Shown: positions 30,029 to 43,393 of the stretch, piece after piece | Position numbering within the stretch: position 1 is the stretch's first letter | Layout: every line of letters starts with the position of its first letter | From: Pseudorhodoferax soli | GTDB taxonomy: Bacteria > Pseudomonadota > Gammaproteobacteria > Burkholderiales > Burkholderiaceae_C | Reading direction: 5' to 3' | Length of the DNA: 64,000 nt | Assembly (NCBI RefSeq): GCF_003337555.1 | Contig: NZ_QPJK01000008.1 | Location: 124,001-188,000, forward strand | Notes under the pieces: generated by a model | The model's database searches: none | Told to the model about the DNA's origin: nothing | Seen by the model: only the letters and a program-made list of their open reading frames with translations | Made by a program: the position numbers and the translations under genes

Positions 30029-31252
30029 TTAGCCCGGGGGCAGCGCCATGGGGAGTAACAAGACCGTCGTGAATCCGGCCAGCGGGGGCGCCAGCCAGCG
30101 CCTTGCGCGGGCCTGGCCGACCGCGCGCACGCGGCCTTGTTCTGCCAGTTCCACGAGCGCCCGTTGCATGGTGCGCTGGCTCGCGTCCAGTGCCAGCGCC
30201 AGTGCCGAGGTGGACCAGGCCGCGCCATCGGACAGCAGCGCGAGCAGCGCGGCCTGTTCTCCGGCGATCGGGGGTGCGAGCACCGCGACCTCTGGCGCCG
30301 CCGCTGGCCGCAGCGCATAGCCCGTGGCCGTGGCCTCGACCCCCGCGCAGCCCTTGAGCAGCGCGCGCAGCCGGCCCAGTTCGACGCGCAGCCGGGCGCG
30401 GTGCGTCTCGTCGGGCTGGCGGATGCGAAAGGCCGTGGCGATCAGCGCTGTGCGGTCGGCCGCGCCGGGCCAGGCCTCGGCCAGTGCGCGCGCGAGCGTG
30501 AACAGCACGGGCCGGCGTGCCAGCGCGATCCAGTGCGGCCCGCATTGCAGGCCACGGCGGCATCCGTCGACCACCAGCGCGCCCGAGGCGAGCAGGGCGG
30601 CCACCGCATCGAGCGTCAGCGCTTCGGCGCGGCCCTGGTCGACGCGCCGGGCGGCCGGGCACTCCAGTGCGGCCTGGGCCGCAGCCACCTCGGCCTGCAG
30701 GGCGGGCACGCCCGCCCGCGCAGCGGCCTCCTGCGCGCGCGCCAGCGCGGCGCGCGCAGGGCCGGTGCGCAGCGCACGCAGGTCGAGCTCGGCCGCGCAG
30801 AGCTCGGCCACGGCGCGCAGCCGCGCGGGCATGGCCGGTGCGGGATGCAGCGGCGCGAGCGCCTGCGCTGCATCGCCGAGCCGGCCCAGCAGCAGCGCGC
30901 GCCGCACCGCCACCAGCCGCGCCAGCAGTGCGTTGGCCAGGTCGCCCTGCGCCTCCAGTGTGGCCAGTGCGGCCAGCAGTGGGCGCGCGGGGCCGCCCAG
31001 TTCGCGCACAGCCAGCGCGATCTCGGCCTCGGCCACCACGCAGCGCGCCCGCGCGACCGTGGCACGCGGGCCGAAGCCGCGGGCCGCGCGGCGCAGCAGT
31101 GCGCGGGCGCGCCCGTGCTCGCCGAGCTGGGCCATGGCGATGCCGCGCAGCGCCAGCGCCGTGGGGTCGTCGTGCAAGGCGATGAGGCGCAGCGCGCCCA
31201 GCGCATCGCCGATGGCAAGTGCGCGGGCGGCGGCGGTGGCGAGGGCCTGCAT
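30029..31252 (-). CDS. Helix-turn-helix regulator with TPR-like N terminus
   Basis: 407 aa, alanine- and arginine-rich. The first 220 residues are repeated helical pairs in TPR style. A winged-helix of the OmpR/SARP type follows (about 235-325, with RLRVELGRLRALL and a GYALRP wing). A second compact helix-turn-helix ends the protein (LALDASQRTMQRALVELAEQGRVRAVG, about 365-391). It probably senses through the helical region and controls itself and the beta-propeller gene downstream. Such architecture is uncommon but seen in Burkholderiales regulators. Ligand and targets unknown. Confidence 0.65.
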   Translation of the reverse strand: MQALATAAARALAIGDALGALRLIALHDDPTALALRGIAMAQLGEHGRARALLRRAARGFGPRATVARARCVVAEAEIALAVRELGGPARPLLAALATLEAQGDLANALLARLVAVRRALLLGRLGDAAQALAPLHPAPAMPARLRAVAELCAAELDLRALRTGPARAALARAQEAAARAGVPALQAEVAAAQAALECPAARRVDQGRAEALTLDAVAALLASGALVVDGCRRGLQCGPHWIALARRPVLFTLARALAEAWPGAADRTALIATAFRIRQPDETHRARLRVELGRLRALLKGCAGVEATATGYALRPAAAPEVAVLAPPIAGEQAALLALLSDGAAWSTSALALALDASQRTMQRALVELAEQGRVRAVGQARARRWLAPPLAGFTTVLLLPMALPPG

Positions 31253-34928: not shown

Positions 34929-35738
34929 ATGCAGATCGATCTCGACTATGCCGGCCGCCATGTCGTGGTGTTCGGCGGCACCACGGGCATCAATTTCGGC
35001 ATTGCACAGGCGTTCGCGCGGCAGTGCGCGCGCGTGACCGTGGCCAGCCGCCGGCGGGAGAACGTGGACGCCGCGGTGGCGCAGCTGAGCACGGCCGGCG
35101 GCGAGGTGCTGGGCGTCGTGGCCGATGTGCGCGACTTCGACGCCGTGGGCGGGGCGTTTGCGCAGTCGGTCGCGCGTTTCGGCCCGGTCGATGTGCTGGT
35201 CTCCGGCGCGGCCGGCAACTTCCTGTGCGCGGCCGAGGCCATGTCGTCCAACGGCTTCAAGGTGGTGGTGGACATCGACCTGGTCGGCAGCTTCCACGTG
35301 CTGCGCCAGGCGCATGCGCACCTGCGCAGACCGGGGGCGTCGGTGATCCAGATCACGGCGCCGCAGTCCTTCGTGCCGATGCGCTACCAGGCCCATGCCA
35401 GCGCGGCCAAGGCCGGCGTGGACCAGCTCACGCGCACGCTGGCGCTGGAGTGGGGCGGCGAGGGCATCCGCGTGAACTCGATCTCGCCCGGCCCCATCGA
35501 CGGCACCGAGGGCTTCCGCAAGCTGATGGCGCCGACGGCCGAAGACCGCGCTTTCGCGCTCGACCAGGTGCCGCTGCAGCGCTTCGGCAGCCTGGACGAC
35601 ATCGCCAACCTGGCGTTGTTCCTGGGCTCGCCCTATGCGGCCTACATCTCGGGGGCGCTGATCCCCTGCGATGGCGGCGGCGCGCTCGAGAGCGTCAAGC
35701 CGGCGCTGGAAGCCGCAGGCCGCCGCGCCACGGGCTGA
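34929..35738 (+). CDS. Short-chain dehydrogenase, 2,4-dienoyl-CoA reductase-like
   Basis: 269 aa. Starts two bases after the AraC stop. Glycine loop GGTTGINFGIA (16-26), VSGAAGNFL replacing the usual NNAG, then QAHASAAKAGVDQLTRTLALEWG with Lys161. The canonical Tyr-x3-Lys is missing; Tyr153 is eight residues before the lysine. That pattern is seen in 2,4-dienoyl-CoA reductases (DECR type), which use NADPH to reduce conjugated dienoyl-CoAs. With the dehydrogenase at 32840 it suggests breakdown of an unsaturated or branched acid. Confidence 0.8.
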   Translation: MQIDLDYAGRHVVVFGGTTGINFGIAQAFARQCARVTVASRRRENVDAAVAQLSTAGGEVLGVVADVRDFDAVGGAFAQSVARFGPVDVLVSGAAGNFLCAAEAMSSNGFKVVVDIDLVGSFHVLRQAHAHLRRPGASVIQITAPQSFVPMRYQAHASAAKAGVDQLTRTLALEWGGEGIRVNSISPGPIDGTEGFRKLMAPTAEDRAFALDQVPLQRFGSLDDIANLALFLGSPYAAYISGALIPCDGGGALESVKPALEAAGRRATG

Positions 35739-35778: not shown

Positions 35779-35794
35779 TCCCGCGATCGCGGGA
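35779..35794. promoter_or_regulatory. 16-bp perfect palindrome upstream of the L7/L12-like PEP-CTERM gene
   Basis: TCCCGCGATCGCGGGA, a perfect palindrome 100 bases before the start at 35895, in the gap 35739-35894. Could be an operator for that gene or, read as RNA, a tight hairpin ending the upstream operon; no T-run follows. Confidence 0.4.
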
Positions 35795-35894
35795 TGTTCG
35801 CGGGCGCACGGCCTCCCCATACTCGCGCCACCACCCCCGTGGCGCATGGTGCGCCTGCACCGGGGCTCCCGTGCTGGAATCTCGGAGGTTCGCG

Positions 35895-37223
35895 ATGGTC
35901 AAGACGTGCTTGCGTGCCGCTGCGGTGGCGTTGGCGGTGTTCTGCGGGGTTCTGCTCGCCGGCCCATGGCAGCAGGCGCACGCCGCGCCCATCGTGTTGC
36001 ACAAGGCAACGGACAACGGCACGCCGGACACCGAAGGCCGCTTCATCGCGGCGCTGGAGCCGGCCGACAACGCCAGCCAGGCCCAGCTGCAGCTGACGAC
36101 GGCCGGCGGGCCGGGCGCCCGGATCACCGGCCTGTACCTGCAGGACACCACGGGCGCCATCGCCCGGGACAGCCTGTCGGGCGGTCCGCGGGTGCGCCTG
36201 GCCGAGACCCGGCTCTACGATGTGCTGCTGACCGACCCGGGCAGCCGCAAGATCGCGGTGATCAAGACGCTGTCGGACGCGCTGGGCATCACGCCCGGCG
36301 CCGCGAAAGACCTGGTGGACCGTGCGCCCACCGTGGTCCGCACGGCCTCCAGCCCCGACGGCAATGCGCAACTGAAGCAGGCGCTGGAGAGCGCCGGCGC
36401 CGTGGTGGCGCTCAACAGCCGCCAGAACCCGTCCGTGCCTGCCGGCGCGAACGAAGGAGCCTCGCTGCCCGGCGCCGCGCCGACGGCTTACGACCTGGTG
36501 CTGTCCAGCGTCGGCCCCCGCAAGGTCGCCGTCATCAAGGTGGTGCGCGACCTGACGGGGCTGAGCCTGACGGAGGCCAAGAAACTGGTGGACGGCGCAC
36601 CTTCCGTCATCCTGGCCAACGTGCTGGCGGCGGACGTGGAGGCGGCGCGCCAGGCGCTGCAGGAGAGCGGCGCCACGGTGGCGTTGACTCCGGTCGGCGG
36701 CAGCTTGGGCGGCGTGCCGATCGCGCTGCCGCCGGGCAGTGCCGGCTTCGTGCCCGACATCGGCCTGGCCTTCGCCTACGACGATCCCGACGCCACGCCG
36801 AGCCTGTGGCTCACGCTCGATCTGCAGGGTGTCTTCGCCGACCTGCTGGCCGCATGGGAGCGCGGGCAGTTCGTGCTCGGTCTGAAGGTGACGGATGCCA
36901 CCGGCCGCTCCGACCTGTACCTCGCGGGTGATGCCACGCCGCCCGCCGAGGTGCCCGAACCGCCCACGCTCGCGCTGTGGGCACTGGCGCTGCTGGGCCT
37001 GCGGGCGGTTCCGTTCGGCGGGCGCTGGCGCCCGGTGGCCGCCGCCTACCGCGCGGGGCGCCGGGCCCTGGCCCGCGTGGCGGGTGGCGCATCGGTCTCG
37101 CCCAGCCACTCGGCTTCCCAACGGCCGTTCGCGATCAAGGCGCGCGCCTGGTGTTCGAGCGCCTGCACCACCACCGTGGCCGCAGCGTCCAGCGGCCTGT
37201 CGGCGGCCGTGGCGAGGCTGTAG
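35895..37223 (+). CDS. PEP-CTERM exported protein with two ribosomal L7/L12-like domains
   Basis: 442 aa. GGAGG seven bases before the ATG. Signal peptide to about residue 32 (AHAAP). Two copies of a fold matching the C-terminal domain of ribosomal protein L7/L12 follow: about 108-173 (YDVLLTDPGSRKIAVIK, then AKDLVDRAP) and 199-264 (YDLVLSSVGPRKVAVIK, then LTEAKKLVDGAP). A region of about 85 residues without a known domain comes next, then VPEP at 353-356, a hydrophobic stretch and a basic segment: a PEP-CTERM sorting signal. Oddly the frame runs on about 70 residues past that signal, antisense to the end of the LysR gene at 37046. No ribosomal or translation gene is nearby. The function is unknown; a secreted or surface structural role is most likely. 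Confidence 0.82.
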   Translation: MVKTCLRAAAVALAVFCGVLLAGPWQQAHAAPIVLHKATDNGTPDTEGRFIAALEPADNASQAQLQLTTAGGPGARITGLYLQDTTGAIARDSLSGGPRVRLAETRLYDVLLTDPGSRKIAVIKTLSDALGITPGAAKDLVDRAPTVVRTASSPDGNAQLKQALESAGAVVALNSRQNPSVPAGANEGASLPGAAPTAYDLVLSSVGPRKVAVIKVVRDLTGLSLTEAKKLVDGAPSVILANVLAADVEAARQALQESGATVALTPVGGSLGGVPIALPPGSAGFVPDIGLAFAYDDPDATPSLWLTLDLQGVFADLLAAWERGQFVLGLKVTDATGRSDLYLAGDATPPAEVPEPPTLALWALALLGLRAVPFGGRWRPVAAAYRAGRRALARVAGGASVSPSHSASQRPFAIKARAWCSSACTTTVAAASSGLSAAVARL

Positions 37224-38059
37224 CTGCGCTGCAGTTCGGGCTCGACCACGCGGGCCACCAGCCAGGGCGCCGCGCGGCGCCCGGCGTCGGGCAGGGCGCA
37301 GGCGGGTGTGAACGTGAAGCCGGCACCGCTGGCATAGAGCGAGCGGATCACACGTGCCGAATCGTGCTCGTGCGCGATGTTGAGCACCACGTCCTGGCTG
37401 GCGGCGGCCTCCTCCACGCGCTGGCGGATCGAGAAGCGGCGCGACTGCAGCACCAGCGGCTGGGCGGCCGCATCGGCGAACGCAATGCGCGGATGGCGCG
37501 TGCGCGGCGCGCCGCGTTGCAGCAGCGGCGCCACCGTGCCCGCCGTGTCGTGGCCGCAGAAGTACATGGCCTCGCGTGCGAAGGGGCGGCTGCGCAGCCC
37601 GTCGACCTGGGCGGTGTCCACCAGGATGCCGACATCGGCGCGGCGGTCCACCATGGCCTTGCGTACGAGCAGGCTCAGGTCGTCGAGCACGAACACGCGG
37701 ATGCGCGGGTGCGAGGCCTTCAGTGCCGTCAGCACCGGGCCCATCAGCAACGAGGCCAGCAGGAACGGCAGGGCCACGGTGACCGAGCCCTCGGGCCCCT
37801 GCGGCAGGCTGCGCACGCGCTCGCGCACGGCGGCGGCGTCGGACAGCAGGCGGCGTGCGTCCTGGTACAGCTGCAGCCCGGCCGGCGTGGGGGTCATGCC
37901 GGCGTGCGAGCGTTCGAACAGCTGCGCGCCGAGGTCGTCCTCCAGCTTGCGGATCTGTGCCGTCAGCGCGGGCTGGGCCACGTACAGGGTGCTGGCCGCA
38001 CGCGACAGGCTGCCTGCCTCCAGCACGGCGATGAAGTAGCGCAGGGTTCGGAGTTCCAC
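37046..38059 (-). CDS. LysR-family transcriptional regulator
   Basis: 337 aa from the GTG at 38059, which gives the family-standard opening VELRTLRYFIAVLEAGSLSRAASTLYVAQPALTAQIRKLE. A GTG at 38128 overlapping the stop of the Bug gene (GTGA) would add 23 residues by coupling and cannot be excluded. Substrate-binding domain from about 90. Fourth gene of a minus-strand operon (ligase, dehydrogenase, Bug protein, LysR), probably its own regulator. Its 3' end overlaps the convergent PEP-CTERM frame by 178 bases; the tail after GRWEAEWLGE is arginine-rich and may be unstructured. Confidence 0.85.
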   Translation of the reverse strand: MELRTLRYFIAVLEAGSLSRAASTLYVAQPALTAQIRKLEDDLGAQLFERSHAGMTPTPAGLQLYQDARRLLSDAAAVRERVRSLPQGPEGSVTVALPFLLASLLMGPVLTALKASHPRIRVFVLDDLSLLVRKAMVDRRADVGILVDTAQVDGLRSRPFAREAMYFCGHDTAGTVAPLLQRGAPRTRHPRIAFADAAAQPLVLQSRRFSIRQRVEEAAASQDVVLNIAHEHDSARVIRSLYASGAGFTFTPACALPDAGRRAAPWLVARVVEPELQRSYSLATAADRPLDAAATVVVQALEHQARALIANGRWEAEWLGETDAPPATRARARRPAR

Positions 38060-38124
38060 GGGCGCCACTGTAAGACCGGGCCCGGCGCCGCGCCGGCCTG
38101 CGGCGCTGCGGCTGGCCGCAGGCC

Positions 38125-39117
38125 TCACATCGGCGCCAGCCCCACGCGCTTCATCATGGCCTCGGTGAAGGCCATCTCGCGGGTGAAGCCGCGCACGTAG
38201 TCCTCGCCGTCCTGCATGTCCACGCCGCCGCCCTGGGCCTGCAGGGCCTCGACCACCTGCGGCTGCTGCAGCGCGGTGCGAAAGGCGGCGCGGATGCGCT
38301 CGACCACCGCGTCCGGCGTGCCGGCCGGCACAGACACGCCGCCCCAGGACACCAGCTCGACGCCCGGCACGCCGGCCTCGGCCAGCGTGGGCACCTGCGG
38401 CAGCATGGGGTTGCGGCGCGGGCCCGCGACGGCCAGCGCGCGCAGCTGGCCGGCCTTGATCTGCTGGTAGGGCACCGACAGGATGGGCGTGCCGAACACC
38501 ACCTGCTTGCCCAGCACGGCGTTGACGAGCTCGGAGGCCCCCTTGTAGGGCACGTGCAGCGCGCGTGCGTCCAGCGCGCTGAGCAGCAGCTCCATGCCCA
38601 GGTGCGAGGGCGTGCCCACGCCGCCCGAGGCGTATTCAAGCGTGCCGGGCGCGGCGCGCAGCCGGGCGGCCAGCGCCTGCACGCTGTCGATGCCGGAGTC
38701 CGCACGCACGATCAGCACGATGTCCGAGCTCGTGAGCCGCATCACGTGGCGGAAGTCCTTCAGCGCATCGAAGCCTGGTTGCCGGTACATGCGCATGTTG
38801 GCCGCCATGGGTGCGGCCGAGTAGACCCAGGTGTAGCCGTCCGCCGGTGCCTTGGCCGCCAGCCGCGCGCCGATGTTGCCAGCCGCGCCGCCCTTGTTCT
38901 CGATCACCACGGGCTGGCCCAGCAGCGGGCCCACGGCCTCGGCCAGGATGCGGGCCGTGTTGTCCGGGCCGGTGGCGGCCAGGTAGGGCAGCAGCCACTT
39001 GATCGGGCGGCTGGGGTAGGGATCGGCGGCGTGGGCCATGGGTGCAAGGGGCGCCAGCGCGGCGGCCAGGCCGGCGCTTAGCAGGGCGCGGCGGTGCGGG
39101 TCGAATGGTGTCGTCAT
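38125..39117 (-). CDS. Tripartite tricarboxylate transporter substrate-binding protein (Bug family)
   Basis: 330 aa. The start at 39117 has GGAGA upstream. Signal with paired arginines (PHRRALLSAG) cut after MAHA; then PYPSRPIKWLLPYLAATGPDN, VVIENKGGAAGNIGA and PADGYTW, the Bug hallmark stretches. Bug proteins bind carboxylates in the periplasm; the TctA/TctB permease is not in this window, which is common. Gap to the dehydrogenase gene upstream is 33 bases. Presumably collects the acid activated by the ligase at 40354. Confidence 0.92.
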   Translation of the reverse strand: MTTPFDPHRRALLSAGLAAALAPLAPMAHAADPYPSRPIKWLLPYLAATGPDNTARILAEAVGPLLGQPVVIENKGGAAGNIGARLAAKAPADGYTWVYSAAPMAANMRMYRQPGFDALKDFRHVMRLTSSDIVLIVRADSGIDSVQALAARLRAAPGTLEYASGGVGTPSHLGMELLLSALDARALHVPYKGASELVNAVLGKQVVFGTPILSVPYQQIKAGQLRALAVAGPRRNPMLPQVPTLAEAGVPGVELVSWGGVSVPAGTPDAVVERIRAAFRTALQQPQVVEALQAQGGGVDMQDGEDYVRGFTREMAFTEAMMKRVGLAPM

Positions 39118-42493: not shown

Positions 42494-43393
42494 ATGCTTG
42501 ATCCGACCACCTCTTCCCGCCGCCGCGGTGCGGCCCGCCTGCTGCTGGGGCTGGCCTGCGCCGCCGCGCTGGCCGGCCCTGCGCTGGCTGCCGACGCCAG
42601 CCTCGACCAGGTCTACCAGGCCGCGCACGGCGGCCATGTGGACCAGGCCCTGCAGATGATGGACCCGGTGCTGCGCGACCACCCGGGCAGTGCCAAGGCC
42701 CACTACGTCGAAGCCGAGTTGCTGGCCCAGCAGGGCCGCCTCGGGCCGGCGCGCACCGAGCTGGCGACGGCCGAGCGGCTCGCGCCCGGATTGCCCTTCG
42801 TGCAGGACCAGTCGCTGCAACACCTGCGCCGCGTGCTCGACCAGGCACCCGTGGCGGCCAGCCGCAGCCCGTTGACGATGCCGGCGGCCGAGGCCGCGCA
42901 TGGACGGTCGCTGGGATGGGGCCTGGCCCTGGCCGTGGTCTTCGGCGCGCTGCTGGGCTGGCTGCTCACGCGCGCCAACCGGCCGCGCCTGGCCCCGCCG
43001 GCCCCGGGCATGGCGCCGATGGCCGCGGCGGGCCCGTCCATGGCCTGGCCGCGCGGCCCCGTGGCCGCCGATGGTCCGGCGCCCTGGGGTGGCGCAGCGG
43101 CCGCGCCGGCTCCGGCCGGTCCGGGCTGGGGTTCGCATGTGGCGGCCGGTGTGGCCGGTGGCCTGGCTGCCGGCGCTGCGGCCGTGGCGGGGCAGGAGCT
43201 GGGCCGGCGCCTGTTCGGCCACGACACCGTGGCTGCGCCCGCGCCCTACGCGGCGCCGCTGGCGCAGGCGGCACCGGCCGCGGACGGCTGGTCCGATCCG
43301 GACTTCGGCATCCGCGGTGCTGGTGGCGGCTGGGACGATGCGACGGACGCGGACGCCGACGCGGGCGGCCTCGGCGGCAACTGGGACGTCTGA
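42494..43393 (+). CDS. Exported TPR membrane protein with glycine/aspartate-rich tail
   Basis: 299 aa. CAGGAGAC precedes the ATG. Signal peptide to about residue 33 (ALAADA), two TPR-like helical pairs (about 36-110), a membrane segment LGWGLALAVVFGALLGWLL at about 138-156, then a proline/alanine-rich linker, a glycine-zipper-like AAGVAGGLAAGAAAVAGQ stretch and a tail rich in Gly and Asp ending GGNWDV. A similar Gly-zipper plus C-terminal acidic layout occurs in small envelope proteins of Burkholderiales. No enzymatic motif. It converges on the response regulator gene. Confidence 0.6.
   Translation: MLDPTTSSRRRGAARLLLGLACAAALAGPALAADASLDQVYQAAHGGHVDQALQMMDPVLRDHPGSAKAHYVEAELLAQQGRLGPARTELATAERLAPGLPFVQDQSLQHLRRVLDQAPVAASRSPLTMPAAEAAHGRSLGWGLALAVVFGALLGWLLTRANRPRLAPPAPGMAPMAAAGPSMAWPRGPVAADGPAPWGGAAAAPAPAGPGWGSHVAAGVAGGLAAGAAAVAGQELGRRLFGHDTVAAPAPYAAPLAQAAPAADGWSDPDFGIRGAGGGWDDATDADADAGGLGGNWDV

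Follow-up and report, generated by a model that had tools for sequence, protein, structure and literature searches.

Tandem ribosomal L7/L12-type domains in a predicted exported, PEP-CTERM-like protein of Pseudorhodoferax

Ribosomal proteins are usually regarded as cytoplasmic. In ribosomal bL12 (L7/L12), we take K65, I69, K70, R73 and K84 to be the residues that contact translation factors. The C-terminal domain of L12 is described as the common site for translational GTPases in one published study (PMC10931766), and PepA, a PEP-CTERM protein of Aquincola tertiaricarbonis, is described as having a part in floc formation in another (PMC9850573). In a 64,000-nucleotide window of the Pseudorhodoferax soli genome (the whole stretch of DNA that we analysed, whose numbering is used throughout), we confirmed an open reading frame at 35895–37223 on the forward strand, with the translation given in the initial annotation. 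The frame is a coding gene; its product starts like a signal peptide, contains two true L7/L12 C-terminal domains and carries a PEP-CTERM-like tail, and this layout was kept in all six species examined.

Compared with the C-terminal domain of ribosomal bL12 (PF00542), the domains of this protein are alike in sequence and fold over the entire domain, and their identity to the domain of the cell's own rplL is 39–52% for the second copies and 36–46% for the first copies. They differ from ribosomal bL12 in standing in tandem within an export-type chain, in having few lysines off the hairpin face, and in that an N-terminal dimerisation domain was not seen. With PEP-CTERM proteins (TIGR02595) the protein has in common the signal-peptide-like start, the VPEP motif, the hydrophobic segment and the presence of an exosortase in the genome, whereas the region ahead of VPEP matches no NCBIfam PEP-CTERM family. 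Against the floc_PepA family (NF033554, cut-off 80 bits), the window copy scored 18.9 bits and the members that matched (five of six) scored 16.3–21.7, and no match to this family was reported once residues 351 onward were removed.

Two L7/L12 C-terminal domains in an export-type chain

PF00542 (Ribosomal_L12) was the sole Pfam family found in the protein, matching two stretches with an E-value of 3e-35 and 120.8 bits against a gathering threshold of 25.9. These were the same residues in which two L7/L12 C-terminal domains had been proposed from the sequence: residues 108–173 (36216–36413, forward strand, 52.1 bits) and residues 199–264 (36489–36686, forward strand, 77.2 bits), each covering positions 1–66 of the 67-position model. 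The family was also matched by all six genus orthologues. A sequence search of the PDB aligned the second domain with 1ctf at an E-value of 1.7e-12; every one of the 18 solved-structure matches with an E-value below 0.001 was an L12 chain, and the remaining three had E-values of at least 0.88. Chance is excluded as the source of the L7/L12 match. AlphaFold2, run on the mature region with six sequences, gave a mean pLDDT of 58.6 and a pTM of 0.31, and modelled both L12 copies in the beta-alpha-alpha-beta-alpha-beta order, with pLDDT values of 72–91 in the 10-residue blocks inside the first domain and 75–91 in those inside the second. A Foldseek comparison with the PDB returned 1ctf as the top match of the model (target TM 0.95, rmsd 0.7 over 67 columns), and no other fold was obtained for either repeat, so the structural check suggested for the repeats came out as an L12 fold. 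The linker between the domains (residues 174–198, 36414–36488, forward strand, NPSVPAGAN-type) is invariant at 10 of 25 positions in the six orthologues and had the lowest regional mean pN, 0.15 for residues 175–196.

In the mature protein, the N-terminal flank (residues 31–107, 35985–36215, forward strand) has a few strands predicted at low confidence, and the C-terminal flank (residues 265–350, 36687–36944, forward strand) is invariant at 35 of 86 positions in the six orthologues. Both were modelled poorly by AlphaFold2, with pLDDT mostly below 50, and no family match was found for either. A resemblance of the flanks to a known PEP-CTERM beta-sandwich was considered. When both flanks, fused after removal of the L12 part, were searched against 299 family genomes at E-values up to 0.01, ten matched. 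Four of these belong to the genus; in the other six (E 1.9e-4 to 0.0097) the frames looked unrelated by eye, for example LysR-like, acyl-CoA dehydrogenase or GMC oxidoreductase-like. In 399 order genomes at an E-value of 0.001, P. soli itself was the sole match, and comparison of the flanks with 30 genus PEP-CTERM proteins, out of 172 matches, revealed no relative (best E 0.048). The NCBIfam matches of the C-terminal part disappeared without VPEP and the residues downstream of it. The flank searches gave no support to the idea that the L12 pair was inserted into such a beta-sandwich, and structure prediction left the flanks unresolved.

The predicted signal peptide comprises residues 1–30 (35895–35984, forward strand) and was assigned from sequence features, with an A-x-A motif ahead of A31. 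All six orthologues start with a short basic region followed by a hydrophobic run and A-x-A, and A28, A30 and P32 are invariant among them, so a signal-peptide-like start is present in every orthologue; its absence from close homologues, which the initial annotation had named as a ground for refutation, was not seen. At the other end, VPEP (residues 353–356) is invariant and followed by a hydrophobic segment in all six, and this PEP-CTERM-like sorting tail occupies residues 353–371 (36951–37007, forward strand) of the window copy. The TIGR02595 profile, with a cut-off of 16 bits, scored the other five orthologues at 21.0, 19.0 and 17.3 bits, above the cut-off, and at 15.9 and 15.3 bits, below it. 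For the window copy TIGR02595 gave no match, even with E-values up to 10 admitted. Features of the proposed combination, a signal peptide and a VPEP sorting motif, are seen in all six orthologues, with the profile silent on the copy from which it was proposed. An exosortase (TIGR02602) scored above its cut-off in all six genus genomes, each of which also contains 25–32 PEP-CTERM matches at E-values up to 0.1 (172 in total), indicating that the sorting machinery is present in the genus. As judged by eye from 30 of the 172 matches, ordinary PEP-CTERM tails of the genus stop soon past the hydrophobic segment and are rich in Arg and Lys, while those of the L12-pair proteins run on for longer and contain fewer Arg.

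Distribution, evolution and neighbourhood of the gene

A full-length orthologue with the same domain order, 59–67% identical to the window protein, was present in all six Pseudorhodoferax genomes examined, the five other carriers being P. aquiterrae KCTC 23314 and strains Leaf265, Leaf267, Leaf274 and DE0202. The record of the last strain is labelled Variovorax boronicumulans but its genome is classified in Pseudorhodoferax, and the strain is possibly mislabelled. No full-length relative beyond the genus was found among 149 related, 299 family and 399 order genomes. A search with the whole protein matched 136 of the 149 related genomes, P. soli included, and the matches outside the genus were confined to residues 160–319, around the second L12 domain, which is what ribosomal L12 itself would give. 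More than one PF00542 match was found in 14 of 398 phylum genomes, including P. soli; in the other 13 the second match was partial, except in one (G482). This genome, from another family of the phylum, has a second full-length L12-like frame (G482:C4:76725-76925, 187 aa, 91.5 bits) beside the usual rplL. Among 399 family genomes, more than one match occurred in the six of the genus and in 29 of the 393 others (one of these, G185, is also in the phylum set), and the extra matches of the 29 were partial except in G194, where a second L12 frame is full-length, and in G215, where it is split.

Among plasmids, 46 records matched, no one of them over 80% of the query, and among the matches listed (15 of 46) the L12 part alone aligned. 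The fold search also returned several phage proteins named as bL12 C-terminal domain proteins, for example one of 308 aa from the uncultured phage cr126_1; these are further occurrences of the fold beyond bacterial genomes. In the open-licence literature, where the slash spelling of 'L7/L12' was not searchable and silence is weak evidence, we found no paper on a PEP-CTERM or exosortase protein with L12; in a paper that mentions both PEP-CTERM and L12, the latter served as a phylogenetic marker and the former occurred just in the references. This is consistent with the earlier remark that no such architecture had been described.

Third-position GC was 0.89–0.95 in the six genes (0.92 in the window copy), and dN/dS over residues 31–350 ranged from 0.34 to 0.65 in 15 pairs, as computed by the Nei-Gojobori method, uncorrected for base bias. 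The gene is real and fast-evolving, with dN/dS near 0.5. Per pair, dN/dS was 0.35–1.01 for the first L12 domain and 0.36–0.89 for the second, compared with 0.22–0.91 and 0.28–0.64 for the flanks; likewise, the first L12 domain has 27 invariant positions out of 66 and the second 31 out of 66, compared with 31 out of 77 for the N-terminal flank, 35 out of 86 for the C-terminal flank and 10 out of 25 for the linker. The L12 domains are under no more constraint than the flanks. In a midpoint-rooted tree of 43 L12 domains (12 exported and 31 ribosomal, 67 columns), in which the bootstrap was unsettled and the program warned of long branches meeting, the 12 exported domains separated from the ribosomal set (99/97), and a single group contained all six first copies (100/99). 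The second copies grouped against the first copies, while their separation as a group from the ribosomal rows was unresolved. A single recruitment followed by a single internal duplication before the genus diversified fits this tree, without being proved by it.

The gene lies between a short-chain dehydrogenase gene (34929–35738, forward strand, start approximate; PF13561, E 1.3e-46, match from 34941) and a convergent LysR-type regulator gene (37046–38128, reverse strand, start approximate; PF00126 and PF03466). This order was kept in four of the six genomes, although in Leaf265 some 3 kb of unrelated sequence precedes the LysR gene. In DE0202 the LysR side was kept, about 3 kb off, and on the upstream side just AraC fragments and the far ORF at 30029–31252 were matched; in Leaf267 none of the eight neighbours was matched within its 20-kb locus. 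Full-length matches of seven of the eight neighbouring proteins were 86–97% identical, and those of the ORF at 30029–31252 were 78–89% identical, compared with 60–67% for the L12-pair protein. Pfam assigned the six window neighbours searched to metabolic or regulatory families, bar one TPR-like protein 5 kb away (42494–43393; PF13432/PF14559, about residues 46–101). As a candidate for the PEP-CTERM system protein PrsT, the TPR-like protein was rejected at 16.3 bits against a cut-off of 312.2.

About 100 bp ahead of the start codon, alignment of six upstream regions revealed an operator-like palindrome with a CCCGCGATCGCGGG core (35780–35796, forward strand). It can be made out in all six species including Leaf267, with bases altered in some of them, and at up to one mismatch CCCGCGATCGCGGG occurs at a single place in the 8.16-Mb genome of P. 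soli, which is listed for both strands owing to the palindromic symmetry. A dedicated regulator binding the palindrome is a guess. A consensus scan found no sigma-70-like promoter.

Kept lysines and the possible role of the L12 pair

There are 12 lysines in the L12 domain of the cell's own ribosomal protein and 2–5 in the exported domains. Lys65 was kept in 11 of the 12 exported domains (Arg in the other), and Ile69, Lys70 and Lys84 in all 12. Among the nine remaining lysines, seven were kept in none of the exported domains, one in three and one in two. Every first copy has Ser or Thr in place of Arg73, which four of the six second copies retain, and Glu82 was variable.

We consider it probable that the protein is a Pseudorhodoferax-specific, exosortase-sorted surface or matrix protein, with a predicted location outside the cytoplasm and with its L12 domains acting as binding modules. 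In such a model, Sec would carry the protein out of the cytoplasm, the exosortase of the genome would handle the tail, and the mature chain would come to lie at the cell surface or within the exopolysaccharide matrix. The L12 C-terminal domain would have been recruited into an exported chain and duplicated within it before the genus diversified, yielding a compact pair of protein-binding modules whose face would be the Lys65/Ile69/Lys70/Lys84 helix hairpin, the remaining surface of the domains having presumably lost its lysines. By analogy with PepA of Aquincola, the most likely candidate ligand would be a cell-surface or matrix partner in adhesion or aggregation, and it is on this parallel that a matrix role would rest. 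The original suggestion had been that the fold was duplicated and reused outside the cell, perhaps in a biofilm matrix. Duplication and reuse of the fold in an export-type protein are supported by profile, fold, orthologues and tree (99/97), with export itself predicted; for the matrix role, no matrix gene was found among the neighbours examined.

A hairpin of the same kind was also observed among the partial PF00542 matches of the family genomes, in small proteins that each contain one or two helix hairpins of L12 type (L137–L148; KIEAIKLLR..TGLGLKEAKDAVE). They resemble the L12 pair in having a non-ribosomal K-x-x-A-I-K ... EAK helix hairpin, frequently in tandem, but match just 24–55 of the 67 domain positions. 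When examined whole, 10 of the 12 end in a membrane segment, often behind a PGEV- or PGRV-like stretch, and neither a signal-peptide-like start nor VPEP was seen by eye in any of the 12. One of them (L148) continues, past its two hairpins and its membrane segment, into a long region that by eye resembles a solute-binding protein. Since the hairpin is kept in membrane-segment proteins as well, it may serve generally as a binding face or may be kept for a structural reason.

The strongest competing view, a doubtful one in our judgement, is that the protein is exported with its L12 domains as mere structural spacers or bulk that bind no ligand, forming a fast-evolving surface decoration. The divergence of the protein (60–67% identity against 86–97% for full-length matches of seven of its eight neighbours), a dN/dS of about 0.5 and the fact that the domains evolve as the flanks do are all in line with this; the preservation of K65, K70 and K84, while the other nine lysines were lost in at least nine of the 12 domains, argues against it and for the domains as binding modules.

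The window copy is 442 aa long, compared with 379–393 aa in the orthologues, because its frame runs on opposite the LysR gene (37046–38128). The end of the extra tail, antisense to that gene (37046–37223, forward strand), is absent from the orthologous proteins, so the end coordinate in the initial annotation includes a part that is not shared. An assembly error at the 3' end may be the source of the tail. It is unlikely that the window copy is instead a decaying gene that has lost its stop and whose sorting tail has degraded: the entry of the tail into the antisense LysR gene and the lack of a reported TIGR02595 match speak for decay, but the frame is fully open, the L12 domains are complete, the third-position GC is 0.92 and dN/dS is like that of the other pairs, and decay would say nothing about the other five species.

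We regard it as very unlikely that the exported pair has retained binding to translational GTPases or to a GTPase-like partner, either as an extracellular stalk mimic capturing surface-exposed or released EF-Tu or EF-G, or as a decoy for secreted stalk-docking agents. This reading arises from the retention of K65 in 11 and of K70 and K84 in all 12 of the exported domains, compared with 0–3 for the other nine lysines.

The whole window protein also exceeded the cut-off of the NCBIfam ribosomal L7/L12 equivalog (TIGR00855; 108.9 against 84.4), as did all five orthologues, and automated annotation may for this reason name the gene '50S ribosomal protein L7/L12'. That it is a cytoplasmic L12 paralogue or ribosome-associated factor, its start being no signal peptide and its role lying in translation, is highly improbable even with the equivalog cut-off passed and the presumed factor-contact lysines kept, since the score sums two stretches of which the best begins at model position 41–50 of 125 (41 in the window copy), no Pfam match lies before residue 108, where no L12 N-terminal dimerisation or L10-binding domain was seen, an ordinary rplL is present separately in the same genome, and the hydrophobic A-x-A start and the VPEP tail are kept in all six.

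We thus favour the reading of a sorted surface or matrix protein with L12 binding modules, in which the lysines retained at the factor-binding face open the way to testing binding directly. If an L12 domain does sit in an exosortase-sorted protein, it would offer a clear example of ribosome-module reuse outside the cell.
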